From Actinacidiphila epipremni (lineage in GTDB: Bacteria > Actinomycetota > Actinomycetes > Streptomycetales > Streptomycetaceae): 64,000 nucleotides of DNA. This document shows positions 3,045 through 19,398 of this stretch, one piece after another (within the stretch, counting starts at the first letter, position 1; every line of letters begins with the position of its first letter). Both the position numbers and the translations under genes were made by a program. Under the pieces are notes generated by a model. It did not search any database. It had not been told where the DNA came from and saw only the letters and a list, made by a program, of their open reading frames with translations. The stretch lies in assembly GCF_012034175.1 (NCBI RefSeq), contig NZ_JAATEJ010000027.1:1-64000 (forward strand), in the 5' to 3' direction.

Positions 3045-4820
3045 CTAGCTCGGGAGGGCGAATTCGCACCAGACGGATTTGCCGCCGTCCGGGGTGTGGC
3101 GGGAGCCCCAGGACGTGGCGATCGTGGCGATGATCGAGATGCCGCGGCCGGCCTCGTCGGCGGGGTCGGCGCGGCGGCGGCGCGGGAGGTGCTCGTCGGC
3201 GTCGGTGACCTCGATCACGAGCCGGCGGTCCGTGCGCCGAAGGCGCAACCGCATGGGTGGGGTGCCGTGCTTGAGGGAGTTGGCGACGAGCTCGCTCGCG
3301 GCGAGGACGCCGAGGTCGCGCAGTTCGACGGGGAAGCGCCAGGACGCCAGGACGCCGGTGGCGAACGCGCGGGCGCGGGGGGCCGCCTCGATGCCGCCGA
3401 GGAGGTCGAGGGAGGCGTTGCGGAAGACCTCGCCGTCGGGGTGGCCGGTGTGGTCGGGGTATTGCATGACGAGGACGGCGACGTCGTCGTCGTGCTGGCC
3501 GGTGACGCCGAGGGCGCGCATGAGGCGGTCGCACACGACCTGCGGGGACCCGGTGGCGCCGGCGAGGGCGCGCATGAGGGTGGTGACGCCGTCCTCGATG
3601 TCCTCGCCGCGGCGTTCGATGAGGCCGTCGGTGTAGAGGACGGCGGTGCAGCCGGGGCCGAAGGGGACGGACGCGGAGACGTGGGGCCAGCCGCCGGTGC
3701 CGAGCGGTGGGCCGGTGGGTTCCTCCGTGCGGGTGACGGTGCCGTCGGGGTCGCGGATGAGCAGGGGCAGGTGGCCGGCGCTGGCATAGGCGAGGCGGCC
3801 CTCGCCGGGGTCGTGGACGGCGTAGACGCAGGTGGCGATCTGGGTCGCGTCGATCTCCGCGGCGAGTCCGTCGAGGAGCTGGATGATCTCGTGCGGGGGC
3901 AGGTCGAGCCGGGCGTAGGCGCGTACCGCCGTGCGCAGCTGGCCCATGACGGCGGCGGCGCGCACCCCGCGGCCCATGACGTCGCCGATGACGAGGGCGG
4001 TGCGGCCGGCGCCGAGGGTGATGACGTCGTACCAGTCGCCGCCGACCGCGGCGTCGGTGCCGCCGGGCTGGTAGGTGGCGGCCAGCCGCAGGTCGTCGGG
4101 CTGTTCGAGCTGCTCGGGCAGCAGGCTGCGCTGGAGGGTGACGGCGGTCTCGTGGATGCGGCGTTCGCTTTCCCTGAGCCGTTCGGCTGACTGGACCTGG
4201 TCGGTGACGTCGGCGGCGAAGACCAGGACGCCGCGGCGTTCGGGGTCGGGGTCGTCGGCCCGGACGGGCGTACAGGTGAAGGTGAAGTAGCCCTGACGGG
4301 TGACGGCGGCGGTGTCGGCCCGGGTGACCTTGCGGGCTTTGACGGTGCGCGGCCGGCCGCTGCGGTGGACCTGGTCCATGAGCGGAAGCAAACCGAGGTC
4401 GGCGAGTTCGGGCAGGGCGTCGCGGGCGGGGGTGCCGGTGGTGCGGGGGCCGAAGACGTCGGCGTAGGCGTCGTTGACGAAGTCGACGCGGTGGGCGGGG
4501 CCGTGGGTGACGGCGATGAGCGCGGGCAGCCGGCTGAGGACCGCGGCGACGGCGGAGTGGGTGTCGCCGAGGGCGGAGAGTGCCTGGTCCTGGAGGGTGG
4601 CGGCCGTGCCGAGGCCGGGCGGTTCTGCGGGGTCGGCGCCGGGGGCGCTCGCGGTGTCCTCGCCGGTGCTCGCGCCGGTCGGGGCTTTCGCGCCGGCGGC
4701 CGGTGCGGCGGTGCCGGTGGCTGTGCCGGTGGCGGCGTCGTCGGTCTTGCCGCGGGCCGCCGGGACGGCTCCGCGTCGCTGTGTTCCGGGGAGCCGGGCG
4801 CTCCAACGCGTGAGGTTCAA
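3045..4820 (-). CDS. PAS-PP2C (SpoIIE-type) phosphatase with C-terminal HATPase/anti-sigma kinase domain
   Basis: A 591-residue multidomain regulator. After a variable N-terminus (1-75) comes a PAS-like sensor (about 80-200, including VDFVNDAYADVFGPR) and a PP2C/SpoIIE phosphatase core (about 230-450) with metal-ligand motifs VGGDWYDV, IGDVMGRG and YTDGLIERRGEDIEDG. The C-terminus is a GHKL ATPase of the RsbW/SpoIIAB type (N-box ELVANSLKHG, about 465-591). Such proteins act on STAS anti-anti-sigma factors of the BldG/RsbV type; a link to BldG at 29294 is only a possibility. The TTG at 4820, behind gaggaatcgg, is the best start visible. The signal sensed is unknown. Confidence 0.9.
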   Translation of the reverse strand: MNLTRWSARLPGTQRRGAVPAARGKTDDAATGTATGTAAPAAGAKAPTGASTGEDTASAPGADPAEPPGLGTAATLQDQALSALGDTHSAVAAVLSRLPALIAVTHGPAHRVDFVNDAYADVFGPRTTGTPARDALPELADLGLLPLMDQVHRSGRPRTVKARKVTRADTAAVTRQGYFTFTCTPVRADDPDPERRGVLVFAADVTDQVQSAERLRESERRIHETAVTLQRSLLPEQLEQPDDLRLAATYQPGGTDAAVGGDWYDVITLGAGRTALVIGDVMGRGVRAAAVMGQLRTAVRAYARLDLPPHEIIQLLDGLAAEIDATQIATCVYAVHDPGEGRLAYASAGHLPLLIRDPDGTVTRTEEPTGPPLGTGGWPHVSASVPFGPGCTAVLYTDGLIERRGEDIEDGVTTLMRALAGATGSPQVVCDRLMRALGVTGQHDDDVAVLVMQYPDHTGHPDGEVFRNASLDLLGGIEAAPRARAFATGVLASWRFPVELRDLGVLAASELVANSLKHGTPPMRLRLRRTDRRLVIEVTDADEHLPRRRRADPADEAGRGISIIATIATSWGSRHTPDGGKSVWCEFALPS

Positions 4821-4949: not shown

Positions 4950-6332
4950 TCAGCGGCGCGGCGGGTCGGTGTCGCCGTCGGCGCCCGCGGCCTGTTCGAA
5001 TTCGGCGCGCGGATGCTCCAGGGAGCCGAGCGAGACGATCTCCCGCTTGAAGAGGCCGGACAGGATCCACTCGGCGAGCACCTTGGACTTGCGGTTGACG
5101 GTGGGCATCCGGCTGAGGTGGTAGACGCGGTGGACGAGCCACGCCGGGTAGCCGGTGAGCCGGCGGCCGTAGAGCAGTGCGACGCCTTCGTGCAGGCCGA
5201 GGGAGGCGACGGAGCCGGCGTATGTGTGGCGGTATTCGGTGAGCGGTTCGCCGCGCAGCTGGTGGGCGATGTTGCCGGCGAGCACCTTGGCCTGGCGTAC
5301 GGCGTGCTGGGCGTTGGGGGCGCACAGGGTGCCGGGCGTGTCGGCGGTGAGGTCGGGGACGGCCGCGGCGTCGCCGGCGGTCCAGGCGTCGGGGACGCCG
5401 GTGATGCGCAGGGTGGCGTCGGCGGCGAGCCGGCCGCGGGCGCCCAGCGGCAGTCCGGTGGCAGCCAGCAGCGGCGCGGGCTTGACGCCGGCGGTCCACA
5501 CGACGGTGCGGGTGGGCAGCCGGGAGCCGTCGGACAGGGCCGCGACGCGGTGCTCGCAGGACTCCAGGCGGGTGTCGAGCCGGATGTCGATGTTGCGGCC
5601 CCGCAACTCCCGTACGGCGTACCGCCCGAGCTGTTCGCCGACCTCGGGGAGGATCCGCCCGGTCGCCTCGACGAGCACCCATTTCATGTCCTCGGGGCGG
5701 ACGTTGTGGTAGTAGCGCAGGGCGTATCTGGCCATGTTCTCCAGCTCGCCGAGCGCTTCGACGCCCGCGTAGCCGCCGCCGACGAAGACGAAGGTGAGGG
5801 CGGCCTCGCGGACGTCGGCGTCGCGGGTGGAGGAGGCGATGTCGAGCTGTTCGAGGACGTGGTTGCGCAGGCCGATGGCCTCCTCGACGGTCTTGAAGCC
5901 GATGCCGTGCTCGGCCAGGCCGGGCACGGGCAGGATGCGGGAGACCGAGCCGGGGGCGAGGACGAGCTGGTCGTAGCGGATCTCGGTGGCGCCGCCGCCC
6001 TCCTCCTCGGTGGCCGGGGTGACGACCTCGGCGACGCGCTTGTCGTGGTCGATCGCGCGCACCTCGCCGACCACGATCCGGCAGCGGTCCAGGACCCGGC
6101 GCAGGGGGACGACGACATGGCGCGGGGAGATCGACCCGGCGGCGGCCTCGGGCAGGAACGGCTGGTAGGTCATGTACGGCTGGGGCTCGACGACCACGAC
6201 CTCGGCCTCGCCGCGGTCGAGCCGCAGCTTTCGCTGCAGCTGCAATGCCGTGTACATGCCGACGTATCCACCGCCGACCACGAGAATGCGCGGTGTGCTT
6301 GCCTTGGCCAGGGCCGCCGACTCCGTCGTCAT
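4950..6332 (-). CDS. ndh: Type II NADH dehydrogenase (NDH-2)
   Basis: A 460-residue flavoprotein that oxidises NADH and reduces quinone at the inner face of the membrane without proton pumping. It has an N-terminal FAD dinucleotide fold (ILVVGGGYVGMYTA, residues about 15-28) and a second GxGxxG NADH site (TFVFVGGGYAGVEALGEL, about 183-200). The FAD-contact segment VWTAGVKPAPLL and a C-terminal amphipathic tail are also present. Length is typical of NDH-2. The frame is open further upstream to 6512, but the ATG at 6332 (MTTESAALAK) leaves a normal N-terminus; the upstream residues resemble no family member. Only a short-spaced GGAG precedes it, so the exact start is moderately certain. Confidence 0.88.
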   Translation of the reverse strand: MTTESAALAKASTPRILVVGGGYVGMYTALQLQRKLRLDRGEAEVVVVEPQPYMTYQPFLPEAAAGSISPRHVVVPLRRVLDRCRIVVGEVRAIDHDKRVAEVVTPATEEEGGGATEIRYDQLVLAPGSVSRILPVPGLAEHGIGFKTVEEAIGLRNHVLEQLDIASSTRDADVREAALTFVFVGGGYAGVEALGELENMARYALRYYHNVRPEDMKWVLVEATGRILPEVGEQLGRYAVRELRGRNIDIRLDTRLESCEHRVAALSDGSRLPTRTVVWTAGVKPAPLLAATGLPLGARGRLAADATLRITGVPDAWTAGDAAAVPDLTADTPGTLCAPNAQHAVRQAKVLAGNIAHQLRGEPLTEYRHTYAGSVASLGLHEGVALLYGRRLTGYPAWLVHRVYHLSRMPTVNRKSKVLAEWILSGLFKREIVSLGSLEHPRAEFEQAAGADGDTDPPRR

Positions 6333-6361
6333 TGCTCCATGACGCAATGGGTGGACGCCGT

Positions 6362-6370
6362 TTGTCCACA
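6362..6370. promoter_or_regulatory. DnaA-box match TTGTCCACA upstream of ndh
   Basis: A perfect copy of the Streptomyces-preferred DnaA box lies 30 bp upstream of the ndh start. A single 9-mer can occur by chance; it is recorded because a pair of such boxes occurs at 40053-40079. Confidence 0.4.
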
Positions 6371-6525
6371 GGGCGGACGGCCCGATTCGGCGGAATCCGC
6401 GTCGGCGCAGGCCGCGGGCCGGCGGGCGCATCGGGTGATCAGCGGGCAAACGCCGCAGAGGCGGGAAGCCGCCACCCGGCCCTGCGGCGCGATCTCCCGC
6501 CCCAGGGATCACACCCCCTTCATTC

Positions 6526-6555: not shown

Positions 6556-6642
6556 GTAGTAGTGCGCGGAGACGCGCATGCGTGATCTTTAAGGGTGGGG
6601 AGTCTCCGGGGGGAGACATTCAATTCGCCGGGGGATACACAT

Positions 6643-7467
6643 ATGCACATTCGGGACACGACATGGACGCCTGCCGCAGCTCCGGAGGGGGGCACGGGCC
6701 GGGCGGCACCCCTGCGGGTGGACGCCCAGCGCAATCTGGAGCATGTGCTCCGCGCCGCCCGTGAGGTCTTCGGGGAGCTGGGCTACGGCGCGCCCATGGA
6801 GGACGTCGCCCGCCGCGCGCGCGTCGGCGTGGGGACGGTCTACCGCCGCTTTCCCAGCAAGGACGTACTGGTCAGAAGGATCGCCGAGGAGGAGACGGCA
6901 CGGCTGACCGAGCAGGCGCGCACCGCGCTCGGCCAAGAGAACGAGGCGTGGTCGGCGCTGGCCCGCTTCCTGCGCACCTCCGTCGCCTCCGGCGCCGGCC
7001 GGCTGCTGCCCCCGCAGGTGCTGCGGGTCCAGCGCACATCGGACGGCCAGGACGCCGAGCCGCAGGGCGGTGACGCGGCGCGGGTGCCGCAGCAGCGCGC
7101 CAGGTTCGGCGAGGACGCGGGGGTCGGGGCGGGGGCGGGCGCCCGTCCGGGCCCGCGCGACCACGCCGGGCGCGACGAGGTGGCGCCGGCCGCCCCGGCC
7201 GTGCCCGCCGGGCGGCCGGGCGCGGCCGAGGAGCAGGACGGGATACGCACCCTGCTCGACGTCGTGGGCCAGCTCGTGGAGCGGGCCCGGACGGCCGGTG
7301 AGCTGCGGGCGGACGTGTCGGTGGCGGATGTGCTGCTGGTCATCGCGACCGCCGCGCCCTCGCTGCCGGACGCCGCCCAGCAGGCGGCGGCGTCGGCGCG
7401 GCTGCTGGACATCCTGCTGGAGGGCCTGCGCTCCCGGCCCTCGGAGCGGCCGGCCGCGCACGAGTAG
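6643..7467 (+). CDS. TetR-family transcriptional regulator
   Basis: A 274-residue regulator with a canonical TetR helix-turn-helix at about residues 30-75 (VLRAAREVFGELGY, then MEDVARRARVGVGTVYRRF). The helical C-terminus (LLDVVGQLVERARTAGEL) is that of Streptomyces TetR proteins. The ATG at 6643 is used because it follows gccggggga with proper spacing; an earlier in-frame start at 6595 lacks this. The protein is longer than the usual 190-220 residues because of a Gly/Ala/Arg/Pro-rich, probably disordered stretch of about 70 residues (about 130-200) in the ligand domain. It is divergent from ndh; target and effector are unknown. Confidence 0.87.
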   Translation: MHIRDTTWTPAAAPEGGTGRAAPLRVDAQRNLEHVLRAAREVFGELGYGAPMEDVARRARVGVGTVYRRFPSKDVLVRRIAEEETARLTEQARTALGQENEAWSALARFLRTSVASGAGRLLPPQVLRVQRTSDGQDAEPQGGDAARVPQQRARFGEDAGVGAGAGARPGPRDHAGRDEVAPAAPAVPAGRPGAAEEQDGIRTLLDVVGQLVERARTAGELRADVSVADVLLVIATAAPSLPDAAQQAAASARLLDILLEGLRSRPSERPAAHE

Positions 7468-7494
7468 CGCGCACGCCGTAGCTGCCGCCCGGTC

Positions 7495-7531
7495 GCGGGC
7501 CGGTCCTCCCGGGGCCGGCCCGCGGCTTTTT
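7495..7531 (+). terminator. Rho-independent terminator after the TetR gene
   Basis: Stem gcgggccgg (7495-7503) with ccggcccgc (7515-7523), followed by ggc and five T residues (7527-7531). Confidence 0.75.
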
Positions 7532-7697
7532 CCGGCGCGCGGCCTTTCGGGCGCACGGCTTTCCCCCGCGCGTCCCCGCACGCGGCGTTCACCCGGACGG
7601 CGGAACGCGGCGGAACCGTGGACGATCCGGCCACGGACGGGTGGTTCCTTCCCGATGCCGGGCCCCTGAGGGGTCGCGCTGTGCCAGTCTTGGGCGC

Positions 7698-9788
7698 GTG
7701 GATGAGGCGAACGGGGAGGCCGCCGGCGGGTCCGCCGCCGCGGAGGGCGGTACGGAGCTGCCGCCGCGCCGGGTGCCGGAGCAGCGCGACCCGGTCGGGC
7801 GCGCCGAGCCGGCGTACGGCGCTGTGCCGCGCCCCGGGGCCGGGCCCGACGACGCGCTCGACGACGCGGTGGAGGACGGTGCCGTCGAGGACGGTGCCGG
7901 GAATGGTTTCGACGACGCCGGGGCGGAGGTGCCCGCCGGGCACCCCGAGCACGGGGAGCAGGAGCCCGGGCACTCCGACGCCGAGCTGGTCGACCAGGTC
8001 AGGGCCGGGCGCGACAGCGCGTACGAGGAGCTGTACCGCCGGCACGCCGAGGCCGTACGCCGCTACGCCCGCACGTGCTGCCGGGACGCGCACACCGCGG
8101 AGGACCTGACCGGCGAGGTGTTCGCCCGTACGTTGCAGGCGATCCGCGGCGGGAGCGGGCCGCAGTCCGCGGTGCGGGCGTATCTGCTCACCACGGTGCG
8201 GCGGGTCGCCGCCGCGTGGGGCAACACCGCGCGCCGCGAGCACCTCGTCGAGGACTTCGCCGTCTTCGCCGTCACGGCGGCCGGCGCCGGCACGGTGGCC
8301 GCGGCGAGCGCGCCGGCCGCGGACGTACGCGCCATGCGCGAGGCCGAGCAGTCGCTCGCCGTCAAGGCCTTCCGTACGCTGCCCGAGCGCTGGCAGACCG
8401 TGCTGTGGCACACCGCCGTCGAGGAGGAGTCGCCGAGTACGATCGCGCCGCTGCTCGGGCTGACCGCCAACGCCACGGCCGTGCTCGCGCACCGCGCGCG
8501 GGAGGGGCTGCGGCAGGCGTACTTGCAGGCGCACGTCAGCTCCGCGCTCACCGAGGCGGGTGAATGCGCGCGGTACGCCGACCGGCTCGGGGCGCACGCC
8601 CGCGGGGGCCTGCGGATGCGGGCGGACCGGGAGCTGAACCGGCACCTGAAGGAGTGCGAGCGCTGCACGGCCGCGTCACGGGAGCTGGCCGACCTCAACT
8701 CGACGCTCAAGGGGCTGCTGCCGGTCGCGTACATCGGCTGGTTCGCCGCGCTGTACGCCACGAAGGCGGGGGCTGTGGTCGTCGCCGGGGGCGCGGCTGC
8801 GGCAGCTGCCACGGGTGGGGCTGCGGCTGCCGCGGCCGGCTCCGCCGGGGCTTCGGCAGGTGCGGGTGCCGCCGGCGCGGGTGCCGCTGGAGCCGGCGCC
8901 GGTGCTGCCGGTGCCGGTGCGGGTTCGGGCGGCGCTGCCGCCGGTGGGGCTGCCGCGGGCGAAGGGCTCGGGGCGCCGGTGAAGGTGGGGATCGCGGTGG
9001 CCGTGGTCGTCGCCGCCGCCGCGACCGCGTTCGCCCTCACCGCCGGGGGTGGCGGGACGCCGAAGCCGCAGGCCAAGCCGCCGGTCGCCGCGCCGGTCGT
9101 GACACCGCCGGTGGCCGCGCCGCCGCCACCTGCGCAGCCGAGCCCGACGCCGGCCCCGAAGCGGGTGGCGCCGCCGGCCCCGCACACCACCGCGCCGACT
9201 CCCCCGCCGCCGTCCCCGCGCCCCACGCCGCGGCCCACGCCGGTCCTCGCGCCGCCGCCCAGCACTCCGGCGCCGCCGCCGGTGACGCCGACGCCCACGC
9301 CGTCCGCGACCCCCAGCCCTACGCCGAGCCCGACGCCGCCGCCGACCGCGTACCAGGTCGACTCGCTGCCCATCAGCGGGGTGGGCGACGCGAAGGGGCC
9401 CAGCATCCGATTGGGCGGCCTGGCGGCCGGCTCGTGGTGGTGGGACCGGTGGGGCCTGCGGATCGCCGGGACGGCGTATGCGCACGGGATCAGCGTGCAT
9501 GCGCCGTCGTCCGTCACGATCGACCTCAACGGGCCGTGCGTCGCGTACGACGCGAAGGTGGGGGTCGATGATCTGACGCGGCTGCTGGGCTCGCCGGTGC
9601 GGTTCGCCGTCTACGCGGACGGTACGCGCGTGTGGACCTCGCCGGTCGTGCGCGGGGGCGACCCCGCGGTCCCCGTCCACGTCGACCTGACCGGCGCGTC
9701 CACCCTCCGCCTGACCGTCACCCGGGAACGCCGCGGATTCCCCGTGGGCCTGGCGGACTGGGCCTCCGCGCAAATCACCTGCCGGTGA
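7698..9788 (+). CDS. ECF sigma factor fused to anti-sigma zinc motif, TM anchor and NPCBM sensor domain
   Basis: A 696-residue one-protein signalling switch. Residues 1-93 are acidic and variable. Residues 94-175 are sigma region 2 (DAELVDQVRAGRDSAYEELY; DLTGEVFARTL). Residues 215-285 are sigma region 4 (LPERWQTVLWHT; IAPLLGLTANATAVLAHRAR). Residues 310-325 form a zf-HC2 anti-sigma zinc motif (H316-x3-C320-x2-C323). An Ala/Gly linker, one membrane helix (about 427-447), a roughly 100-residue Pro/Thr stalk and an extracellular NPCBM-type carbohydrate-binding domain (551-696; GISVHAPSSVTIDL, KVGVDD, FAVYADGTRVW) follow. The GTG at 7698 was chosen over an upstream ATG at 7641, but neither has a clear ribosome-binding site. 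Release of the sigma part, perhaps by proteolysis, is inference. The architecture resembles ECF groups with C-terminal sensory extensions. Confidence 0.88.
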   Translation: MDEANGEAAGGSAAAEGGTELPPRRVPEQRDPVGRAEPAYGAVPRPGAGPDDALDDAVEDGAVEDGAGNGFDDAGAEVPAGHPEHGEQEPGHSDAELVDQVRAGRDSAYEELYRRHAEAVRRYARTCCRDAHTAEDLTGEVFARTLQAIRGGSGPQSAVRAYLLTTVRRVAAAWGNTARREHLVEDFAVFAVTAAGAGTVAAASAPAADVRAMREAEQSLAVKAFRTLPERWQTVLWHTAVEEESPSTIAPLLGLTANATAVLAHRAREGLRQAYLQAHVSSALTEAGECARYADRLGAHARGGLRMRADRELNRHLKECERCTAASRELADLNSTLKGLLPVAYIGWFAALYATKAGAVVVAGGAAAAAATGGAAAAAAGSAGASAGAGAAGAGAAGAGAGAAGAGAGSGGAAAGGAAAGEGLGAPVKVGIAVAVVVAAAATAFALTAGGGGTPKPQAKPPVAAPVVTPPVAAPPPPAQPSPTPAPKRVAPPAPHTTAPTPPPPSPRPTPRPTPVLAPPPSTPAPPPVTPTPTPSATPSPTPSPTPPPTAYQVDSLPISGVGDAKGPSIRLGGLAAGSWWWDRWGLRIAGTAYAHGISVHAPSSVTIDLNGPCVAYDAKVGVDDLTRLLGSPVRFAVYADGTRVWTSPVVRGGDPAVPVHVDLTGASTLRLTVTRERRGFPVGLADWASAQITCR

Positions 9789-9901
9789 CGCCTGGGCCTG
9801 CCCCTTACCGCCGGTTGCGCGACCACCCGCCGGTGGTGGGCTTGTCGCCCCGGGCTGCCCCTTACGGTCCGTTGCGCGAACTTCCGCCGTGGCCGGCTGG
9901 T

Positions 9902-9923
9902 CGCGCAGTTCCCCGCGCCCCTG
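9902..9923 (-). repeat. Single arm of the dispersed 22-bp intergenic repeat
   Basis: An exact reverse-complement arm of the repeat at 2371-2901. It lies in the 224-bp convergent gap between the sigma gene and the FrnE-like gene. Degenerate partners (gttgcgcgacc near 9813, gttgcgcgaac near 9872) precede it. No gene is seen in 9789-10012. Confidence 0.85.
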
Positions 9924-9943
9924 GTTTGTTGCCCTCCGCGCGC

Positions 9944-9961
9944 AAAAATCCCCGTGCGGGG
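9944..9961 (-). terminator. Terminator of the FrnE-like gene (minus strand)
   Basis: Read on the minus strand, a 5-bp GC stem (ccccg/cgggg, 9950-9961) is followed by A and five T residues (9944-9948). A longer stem, gggctgcc (9959-9966) with ggcagccc (9993-10000), sits just before it. Confidence 0.6.
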
Positions 9962-15841: not shown

Positions 15842-15987
15842 CGCGCAGTTCCCCGCGCCCCTGGTATGCCGACCCGCGCCGCAGCCGTAAGCCCATCGGG
15901 GGGGACCCCCACGCCTTGCCGGGTGCGACGGCAGGGGCTCGTCTCCGCGCGTGAGGCCAACCAATCAGGGGCGCGGGGAACTGCGCG
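15842..15987. repeat. Outward-facing pair of dispersed repeat arms in the tmk-rox gap
   Basis: The gap 15742-16078 contains no gene. Exact copies of the 22-bp arm lie at 15842-15863 (reverse) and 15966-15987 (forward), pointing away from each other with 102 bp between. In the full units at 2371-2901 the arms face inward. This suggests two truncated units meeting here, possibly a trace of the rearrangement that placed rox beside tmk. Confidence 0.85.
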
Positions 15988-19269: not shown

Positions 19270-19398
19270 AGGGGCGCGGGGAACTGCGCGCGCAACCGGC
19301 CACCGGCCGGTGGTCCGGACACGACAGCAACAGCCCCTTTCGGACGGTGACGGCCTGCGGGCCGCATACGGCTAGTCGCGCAGTTCCCCGCGCCCCTG
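19270..19398. repeat. Full dispersed repeat unit between topA and tmk
   Basis: Inward-facing arms aggggcgcggggaactgcg (19270 onward) and its complement ending at 19398 enclose about 85 bp. The interior keeps accggccggtggtccgga but is otherwise different from the units at 2371-2901. It fills most of the 324-bp gap 19157-19480, which has no gene. On the minus strand it lies just after the topA stop. Confidence 0.88.

Follow-up and report, generated by a model that had tools for sequence, protein, structure and literature searches.

An ECF52-type sigma/anti-sigma fusion protein with a transmembrane helix and an NPCBM domain, encoded beside an atrA-like gene in Actinacidiphila epipremni

A single forward-strand gene in the window (the whole 64,000-nucleotide stretch of Actinacidiphila epipremni DNA that was analysed) runs unbroken from a GTG at 7698 to a stop codon ending at 9788 and encodes a protein of 696 amino acids, whose N-terminal sigma part (regions 2 and 4) is followed by a zinc anti-sigma (ZAS) domain, a linker rich in Ala and Gly, a transmembrane (TM) helix, a stalk rich in Pro and Thr and, at the C-terminus, an NPCBM (CBM51) domain (Table 1). 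The protein has the traits of the ECF52 group, namely an ECF sigma factor, a fused ZAS domain, a TM helix with a proline-rich extension and a C-terminal carbohydrate-binding-type domain, and by its architecture and synteny the gene is almost certainly the ECF52 orthologue of SCO4117. The architecture is real, yet it is already known in kind and in the orthologue SCO4117 itself; because domain order and gene neighbourhood match those of SCO4117, the finding is that of an orthologue of a published protein.

Table 1. Positions in the window of the fusion gene, its parts and its conserved neighbours.
Feature	Position	Strand	Basis
NDH-2-type NADH dehydrogenase (presumed), conserved neighbour (SCO4119 position)	4950..6512	-	homologue in 78/80 loci
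atrA (SCO4118) orthologue upstream of the fusion gene, TetR-family regulator	6595..7467	+	homologue in 78/80 loci; alignment; synteny PMC5826349
Conserved footprint ahead of the fusion gene: GGACGGGTGG and, 45 nt on (start-to-start), TGTGCCAGTCT (-10-like)	7635..7690	+	fixed 44-45 nt spacing in orthologues
ECF52-type sigma/anti-sigma/TM/NPCBM fusion gene, almost certain orthologue of SCO4117	7698..9788	+	ORF; Pfam/NCBIfam; 80 homologous loci
Sigma-70 region 2, residues 112-171	8031..8210	+	Pfam PF04542 1.5e-10; whole-genome scan also places match here
Sigma-70 region 4, residues 223-269	8364..8504	+	Pfam PF08281 (Sigma70_r4_2) 0.0063, under cut-off; conserved in 32 orthologues; within TIGR02937 match
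ZAS domain, Cx25HxxxCxxC: Cys290 (likely ligand), His316, Cys320, Cys323	8565..8666	+	zf-HC2 0.005 (residues 290-323, under cut-off); ligands invariant; profile match to 3hug_B
LLPVAxIGWFAA segment, conserved, mildly hydrophobic, 3' of ZAS	8715..8765	+	
Ala/Gly-rich low-complexity linker, orthologue lengths differ	8767..8985	+	
TM helix KVGIAVAVVVAAAATAFALTA	8982..9047	+	KD19 2.35 in segment
Pro/Thr-rich stalk	9057..9350	+	sequence composition
NPCBM / CBM51 domain (predicted fold), invariant Cys pair	9450..9779	+	Pfam 3.3e-32 (residues 585-694); AF2 pLDDT 88; Foldseek to CBM51 structures

This domain order had been proposed in an earlier, sequence-only reading, and it is borne out by Pfam and NCBIfam matches, by KD19 values and by an orthologue profile. 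The HMM searches suggested at that time gave strong matches to Sigma70_r2 and NPCBM and matches under the cut-off to Sigma70_r4_2 and zf-HC2. Two observations back the weak scores: both parts show strong conservation across 32 diverse orthologues, and a profile of these orthologues matches solved structures, with ECF sigma factors aligned to regions 2 and 4 and the anti-sigma chain 3hug_B to the ZAS part. The NCBIfam sigma70-ECF profile TIGR02937 matched residues 108-274 (4.7e-16), and this match, taken with those of Pfam, shows a sigma part of regions 2 and 4 only, of the ECF type. There is one strong TM helix, C-terminal to the Ala/Gly linker, and the stalk that follows it comprises ~120 residues, 47 of them proline. 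Sigma and anti-sigma parts do therefore share a single membrane-tethered polypeptide, as the sequence-only reading had it, on the evidence of the domains, the one strong TM helix and the conserved fusion. In a scan of the organism's own genome, Sigma70_r2 matched 59 times and NPCBM five times, and only in this gene do the two coincide; the sigma-ZAS profile has one match in the same genome.

The fused form is widespread among relatives. Within 80 homologous loci taken from named genomes, the fused ORF was intact in 63, cut by contig ends in 13 and frame-broken in four; all named homologue matches were actinobacterial. Whole-genome profile searches, which spanned the window's own order and phylum, found the sigma-ZAS profile in 111 of the 119 genomes of the order (cut-off 1e-30) and in 15 of the 296 genomes of the phylum (cut-off 1e-25). 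Five near-complete genomes of the same family (G044, G058, G059, G060 and G064) had no match to this profile at 1e-30. The sequence-only reading had itself raised the worry that a frameshift had joined two genes. Four homologues that are frame-broken in the repetitive region, together with a split in S. clavuligerus mentioned in the literature (PMC5826349), might lend some weight to such a sequencing or assembly error. The ORF is nevertheless intact and free of frameshifts, and the intact fused ORF recurs in most of the loci and across the order-wide genome set; an artefact of this kind was ruled out on that conservation, and error as the origin of the fusion is scarcely credible. In the four homologues (L027, L043, L061 and L069) the break falls within or close to the repetitive stretch of linker and stalk, and could reflect sequencing error in GC-rich repeats or a real loss of the outer domain.

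The surroundings of the gene are also conserved. The TetR-family regulator upstream of it aligns end to end with its orthologues, and the next gene, whose product we take to be NDH-2 from its sequence and from general knowledge, is divergent from atrA, giving the order NDH-2, atrA, fusion gene. The AtrA-like regulator has a seemingly unusual central part; a frameshift was considered there and rejected, the alignment showing a natural variable insert. Elsewhere in the window, a minus-strand gene at 3045-4820 appears by eye from its translation to encode a phosphatase of the PAS/SpoIIE type that ends in an ATPase-like part. A 21-base exact repeat, CGCGCAGTTCCCCGCGCCCCT, is present in 11 copies where 0.03 are expected (2372-2900, 9902-9922, 15842-15987 and 19270-19397); the copies form mostly inverted pairs ~107-125 bases apart and look like a dispersed intergenic repeat.

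SCO4117 of S. coelicolor was the first ECF52 member to be studied (Lopez-Garcia et al., 2018; PMC5826349). It carries an ECF sigma factor, a zinc finger, a TM segment, a proline-rich stretch and a carbohydrate-binding module in that order, and it sits downstream of atrA (SCO4118) in a synteny conserved across streptomycetes (PMC5826349). Loss of SCO4117 delayed aerial growth, sporulation and actinorhodin production and lowered CDA, and a putative regulon was proposed from a putative motif in 29 promoters (PMC5826349). Following Pinto and Mascher, it was suggested that the carbohydrate-binding module mediates activation, whether by proteolysis or by conformational change (PMC5826349). Both this published identity and the conserved atrA neighbourhood were overlooked in the sequence-only reading, and its description of activation and regulon as largely undescribed was too strong, since a proposed model of proteolytic activation for ECF52/SCO4117, knock-out phenotypes and a putative regulon have been published (PMC5826349, PMC8999054).

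Ahead of the gene lies a conserved footprint. In orthologues from most streptomycetes, GGAYGRGTGG is followed by TGTGnCAnnCT at 44 nt start-to-start (45 in the window); TGTGnCAnnCT served as the anchor, so its own conservation arises by construction, while GGAYGRGTGG and the spacing are independent of the anchor. The footprint pair at 7635-7690 is the only such pair in the organism's genome. Taken alone, CGGACGGGTGGTT has a second copy at G000:C1:410910. The -10-like element stops 7 nt ahead of GTG 7698, which suggests that the message of the fusion gene is leaderless and starts at 7698, a feature new here; the start codon chosen in the sequence-only reading gains support from the same spacing. 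A longer start at GTG 7641 was dropped because the conserved promoter-like element extends to 7690. The apparently leaderless start of the window gene differs from that of many Streptomyces orthologues, which seem to begin at an ATG ~40 nt further downstream. A conserved leader peptide (VFGSERAYGGFRDER-like) between promoter and start in other Streptomyces was considered and rejected, its frame being lost in several species; as the frame is not kept, the conserved bases there are better explained as a ribosome-binding and start region. Scans of 7440-9950 for consensus sigma-70 promoters and terminators found none. The conserved footprint is not obviously equal to the published CSGYN-17-SRHA motif (PMC5826349).

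The anti-sigma part can be described more fully than before. His316, Cys320 and Cys323 are as the sequence-only reading had claimed; it missed Cys290, which lies 26 residues ahead of His316 and is invariant in all 81 sequences examined. The set Cx25HxxxCxxC, invariant in the same 81 sequences, is the four-ligand arrangement of ZAS domains, and Cys290 is likely the fourth zinc ligand, an assignment new here. The conserved segment that follows the zinc finger reads LLPVAYIGWFAA. An AF2 model of the sigma and ZAS parts was only fair to mediocre (pLDDT 67, pTM 0.43); in Foldseek it matched ECF sigma chains, many of them in sigma/anti-sigma complexes, with low TM-scores. The model is too weak to establish an intramolecular complex, and for that reason inhibition of the sigma part by the ZAS domain of the same chain is something that we infer.

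At the other end of the protein, the C-terminal domain is predicted to fold as a CBM51 module (pLDDT 88, pTM 0.85), which settles in its favour an earlier doubt as to whether this end would fold as NPCBM. Its best Foldseek matches are CBM51 modules, including complexes with GlcNAc and methyl-galactose, and its sequence profile also points to CBM51/NPCBM. Two Cys are invariant within this domain in orthologues, and exactly two Cys lie past the TM helix in 64 of the 66 scored orthologues, an extracytoplasmic signature. The same positions are Cys in the NPCBM domain of another protein of the genome, L081, which from its sequence is presumably a secreted alpha-galactosidase-type glycosidase. Because the Cys pair is common to the L081 domain, an oxidising, outside location is favoured for the NPCBM domain; this sharing with a glycosidase-like protein is new here and supports that placement. 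The charges on either side of the TM helix run counter to the positive-inside rule, with mean K/R counts of 0.98 before and 1.73 after it.

More distant homologues suggest what the outer end may do. Thirty, picked from the profile matches in the order and the phylum, were scanned: 14 end in a ricin-B lectin domain (one under the cut-off), two in DUF642, two in a bacterial Ig-like domain, one in F5/8 type C and one in NPCBM; as this sample is phylogenetically unbalanced, these counts are not of independent events. No outer domain was recognised in 10 of the 30, which counts against an explanation by glycan sensing. The homologues may include ECF53 or other groups, and some ECF52/53 members are known to bear glycosyl hydrolase or other carbohydrate domains (PMC10766802). 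The sequences compared retain the sigma-ZAS-TM-stalk chassis but differ in the end domain, which is mostly exchanged for other carbohydrate-binding folds; this pattern is new here and gives the strongest indirect support for the outer end as a reader of glycans. The idea put forward in the sequence-only reading, that glycan is sensed outside the cell, is plausible on the CBM51 fold, the disulfide-type Cys pair and the lectin-swapping relatives. Two chassis homologues, L104 and L105, lie a few kb apart on opposite strands (G045:C37:20000-28500), one with an F5/8-C end and one with a ricin-B lectin end.

Taken together, glycan-linked proteolytic release of the sigma part is the likeliest mechanism and, in our judgement, a reasonably probable one. 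The sigma domain would be held at the cytoplasmic side of the membrane from its synthesis on. There the neighbouring ZAS domain is expected to bind regions 2 and 4 within its own chain and so keep them from RNA polymerase. The single TM helix would carry the Pro/Thr stalk and the CBM51 lectin domain outward into the cell wall. When CBM51 engages, or loses, a glycan in the wall or the surroundings, a protease cascade would cleave first outside and within the membrane segment and strip off the ZAS domain, and the freed sigma would activate developmental and antibiotic genes as well as its own gene. Intramolecular inhibition, the glycan as signal and proteolysis are the inferred parts of this scheme. 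For the orthologue SCO4117, autoregulation by a truncated form has been published, and the truncated-sigma result lends partial support to release and to activation once the C-terminal part is lost or inactivated (PMC5826349, PMC8999054). Points against the scheme are the mediocre sigma-ZAS model, the TM-flank charges and the failure of SCO4117 with its two mapped promoters to complement the mutant (PMC5826349).

The same topology could also operate without cleavage, glycan binding or a mechanical pull on the stalk altering the conformation of the ZAS domain so that sigma acts on DNA while membrane-bound. A tethered sigma could reach DNA by way of the long, flexible Ala/Gly stretch that all orthologues have between the ZAS domain and the TM helix, and conformational change has been quoted as an alternative (PMC5826349). 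However, IutY, the one experimentally characterised fused sigma/anti-sigma protein, uses proteolysis (PMC8999054), and a tethered sigma would have to function within the holoenzyme at the membrane; we regard activation without cleavage as rather unlikely. A further reading, which places the NPCBM domain in the cytoplasm and makes a second TM helix of the LLPVAxIGWFAA segment, draws on the strong conservation and mild hydrophobicity of that segment (KD19 median 1.72 over the first part of the linker) and on the TM-flank charges, which leave the topology unsettled. The segment is short, however, and an invariant Lys follows it, and the Pro/Thr stalk and the invariant Cys pair common to the glycosidase-like NPCBM fit an outside location, so that a cytoplasmic NPCBM domain seems very improbable.

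The signal might instead be read inside, by a ZAS domain that senses redox or zinc, the NPCBM domain serving only to fix the protein to the wall or to places where the wall grows. The C-H-C-C set with its 26-residue spacing resembles that of the redox-responsive RsrA, and Cys290 is invariant in orthologues. Against this, such ligands occur in many ZAS domains that do not sense redox, a Cys occupies the Cys290 position in only 20 of 44 distant homologues, and the replacement of the lectin end by other lectins suggests ligand recognition over plain anchoring; sensing from the inside is accordingly judged unlikely.

If the glycan and the protease were found, the preferred reading, proteolytic release linked to a glycan, would provide a direct single-protein link from the sugar state of the wall or surroundings to antibiotic production and sporulation in Streptomyces, for both of which the orthologue SCO4117 already shows phenotypes. 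The swapped lectin ends offer a natural receptor set for testing which signal tethered sigma factors read. More tentatively, and with somewhat less than even confidence, the sigma-ZAS-TM-stalk unit might be a chassis in general use among actinobacteria, onto which different carbohydrate-binding folds (NPCBM, ricin-B, F5/8-C and possibly DUF642) have been swapped again and again as the outer end. Its members would then be single-protein glycan receptors, each linking its own sugar to a sigma factor, and the NPCBM member beside atrA would report a wall-derived or GlcNAc/galactose-type glycan during development.

The closest known system is SCO4117, which has the same domain order and the same place beside the TetR gene atrA; it comes from another species, and its orthology to the window gene is read from architecture and synteny rather than from direct alignment. 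ECF48, ECF52 and ECF53 are groups of fused sigma/anti-sigma proteins for which proteolytic activation is expected by analogy with IutY (PMC8999054). Like the window protein, ECF53 and ECF48 members join sigma, a zinc finger and TM helices in one chain, with predicted proteolytic activation (PMC8999054), but they are phylogenetic groups other than ECF52. IutY of Pseudomonas putida (ECF243) also combines sigma and membrane anti-sigma in one polypeptide and is freed by regulated proteolysis involving Prc and RseP (PMC8999054); it serves iron-starvation cell-surface signalling triggered by the siderophore aerobactin, and the ZAS-TM-stalk-lectin layout is not described for it. RslA (3hug) and RsiW (5wuq) are likewise of the ZAS type, and the ZAS segment alone matches both weakly; they are, however, separate proteins, whereas in the window protein the ZAS domain is fused to sigma. 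Finally, the CBM51/NPCBM modules 7jrl, 7js4, 2vmg and 8pvs share sequence family and predicted fold with the C-terminal domain, but they come from glycan-degrading enzymes or glycopeptidases, while the domain described here sits in a regulator.
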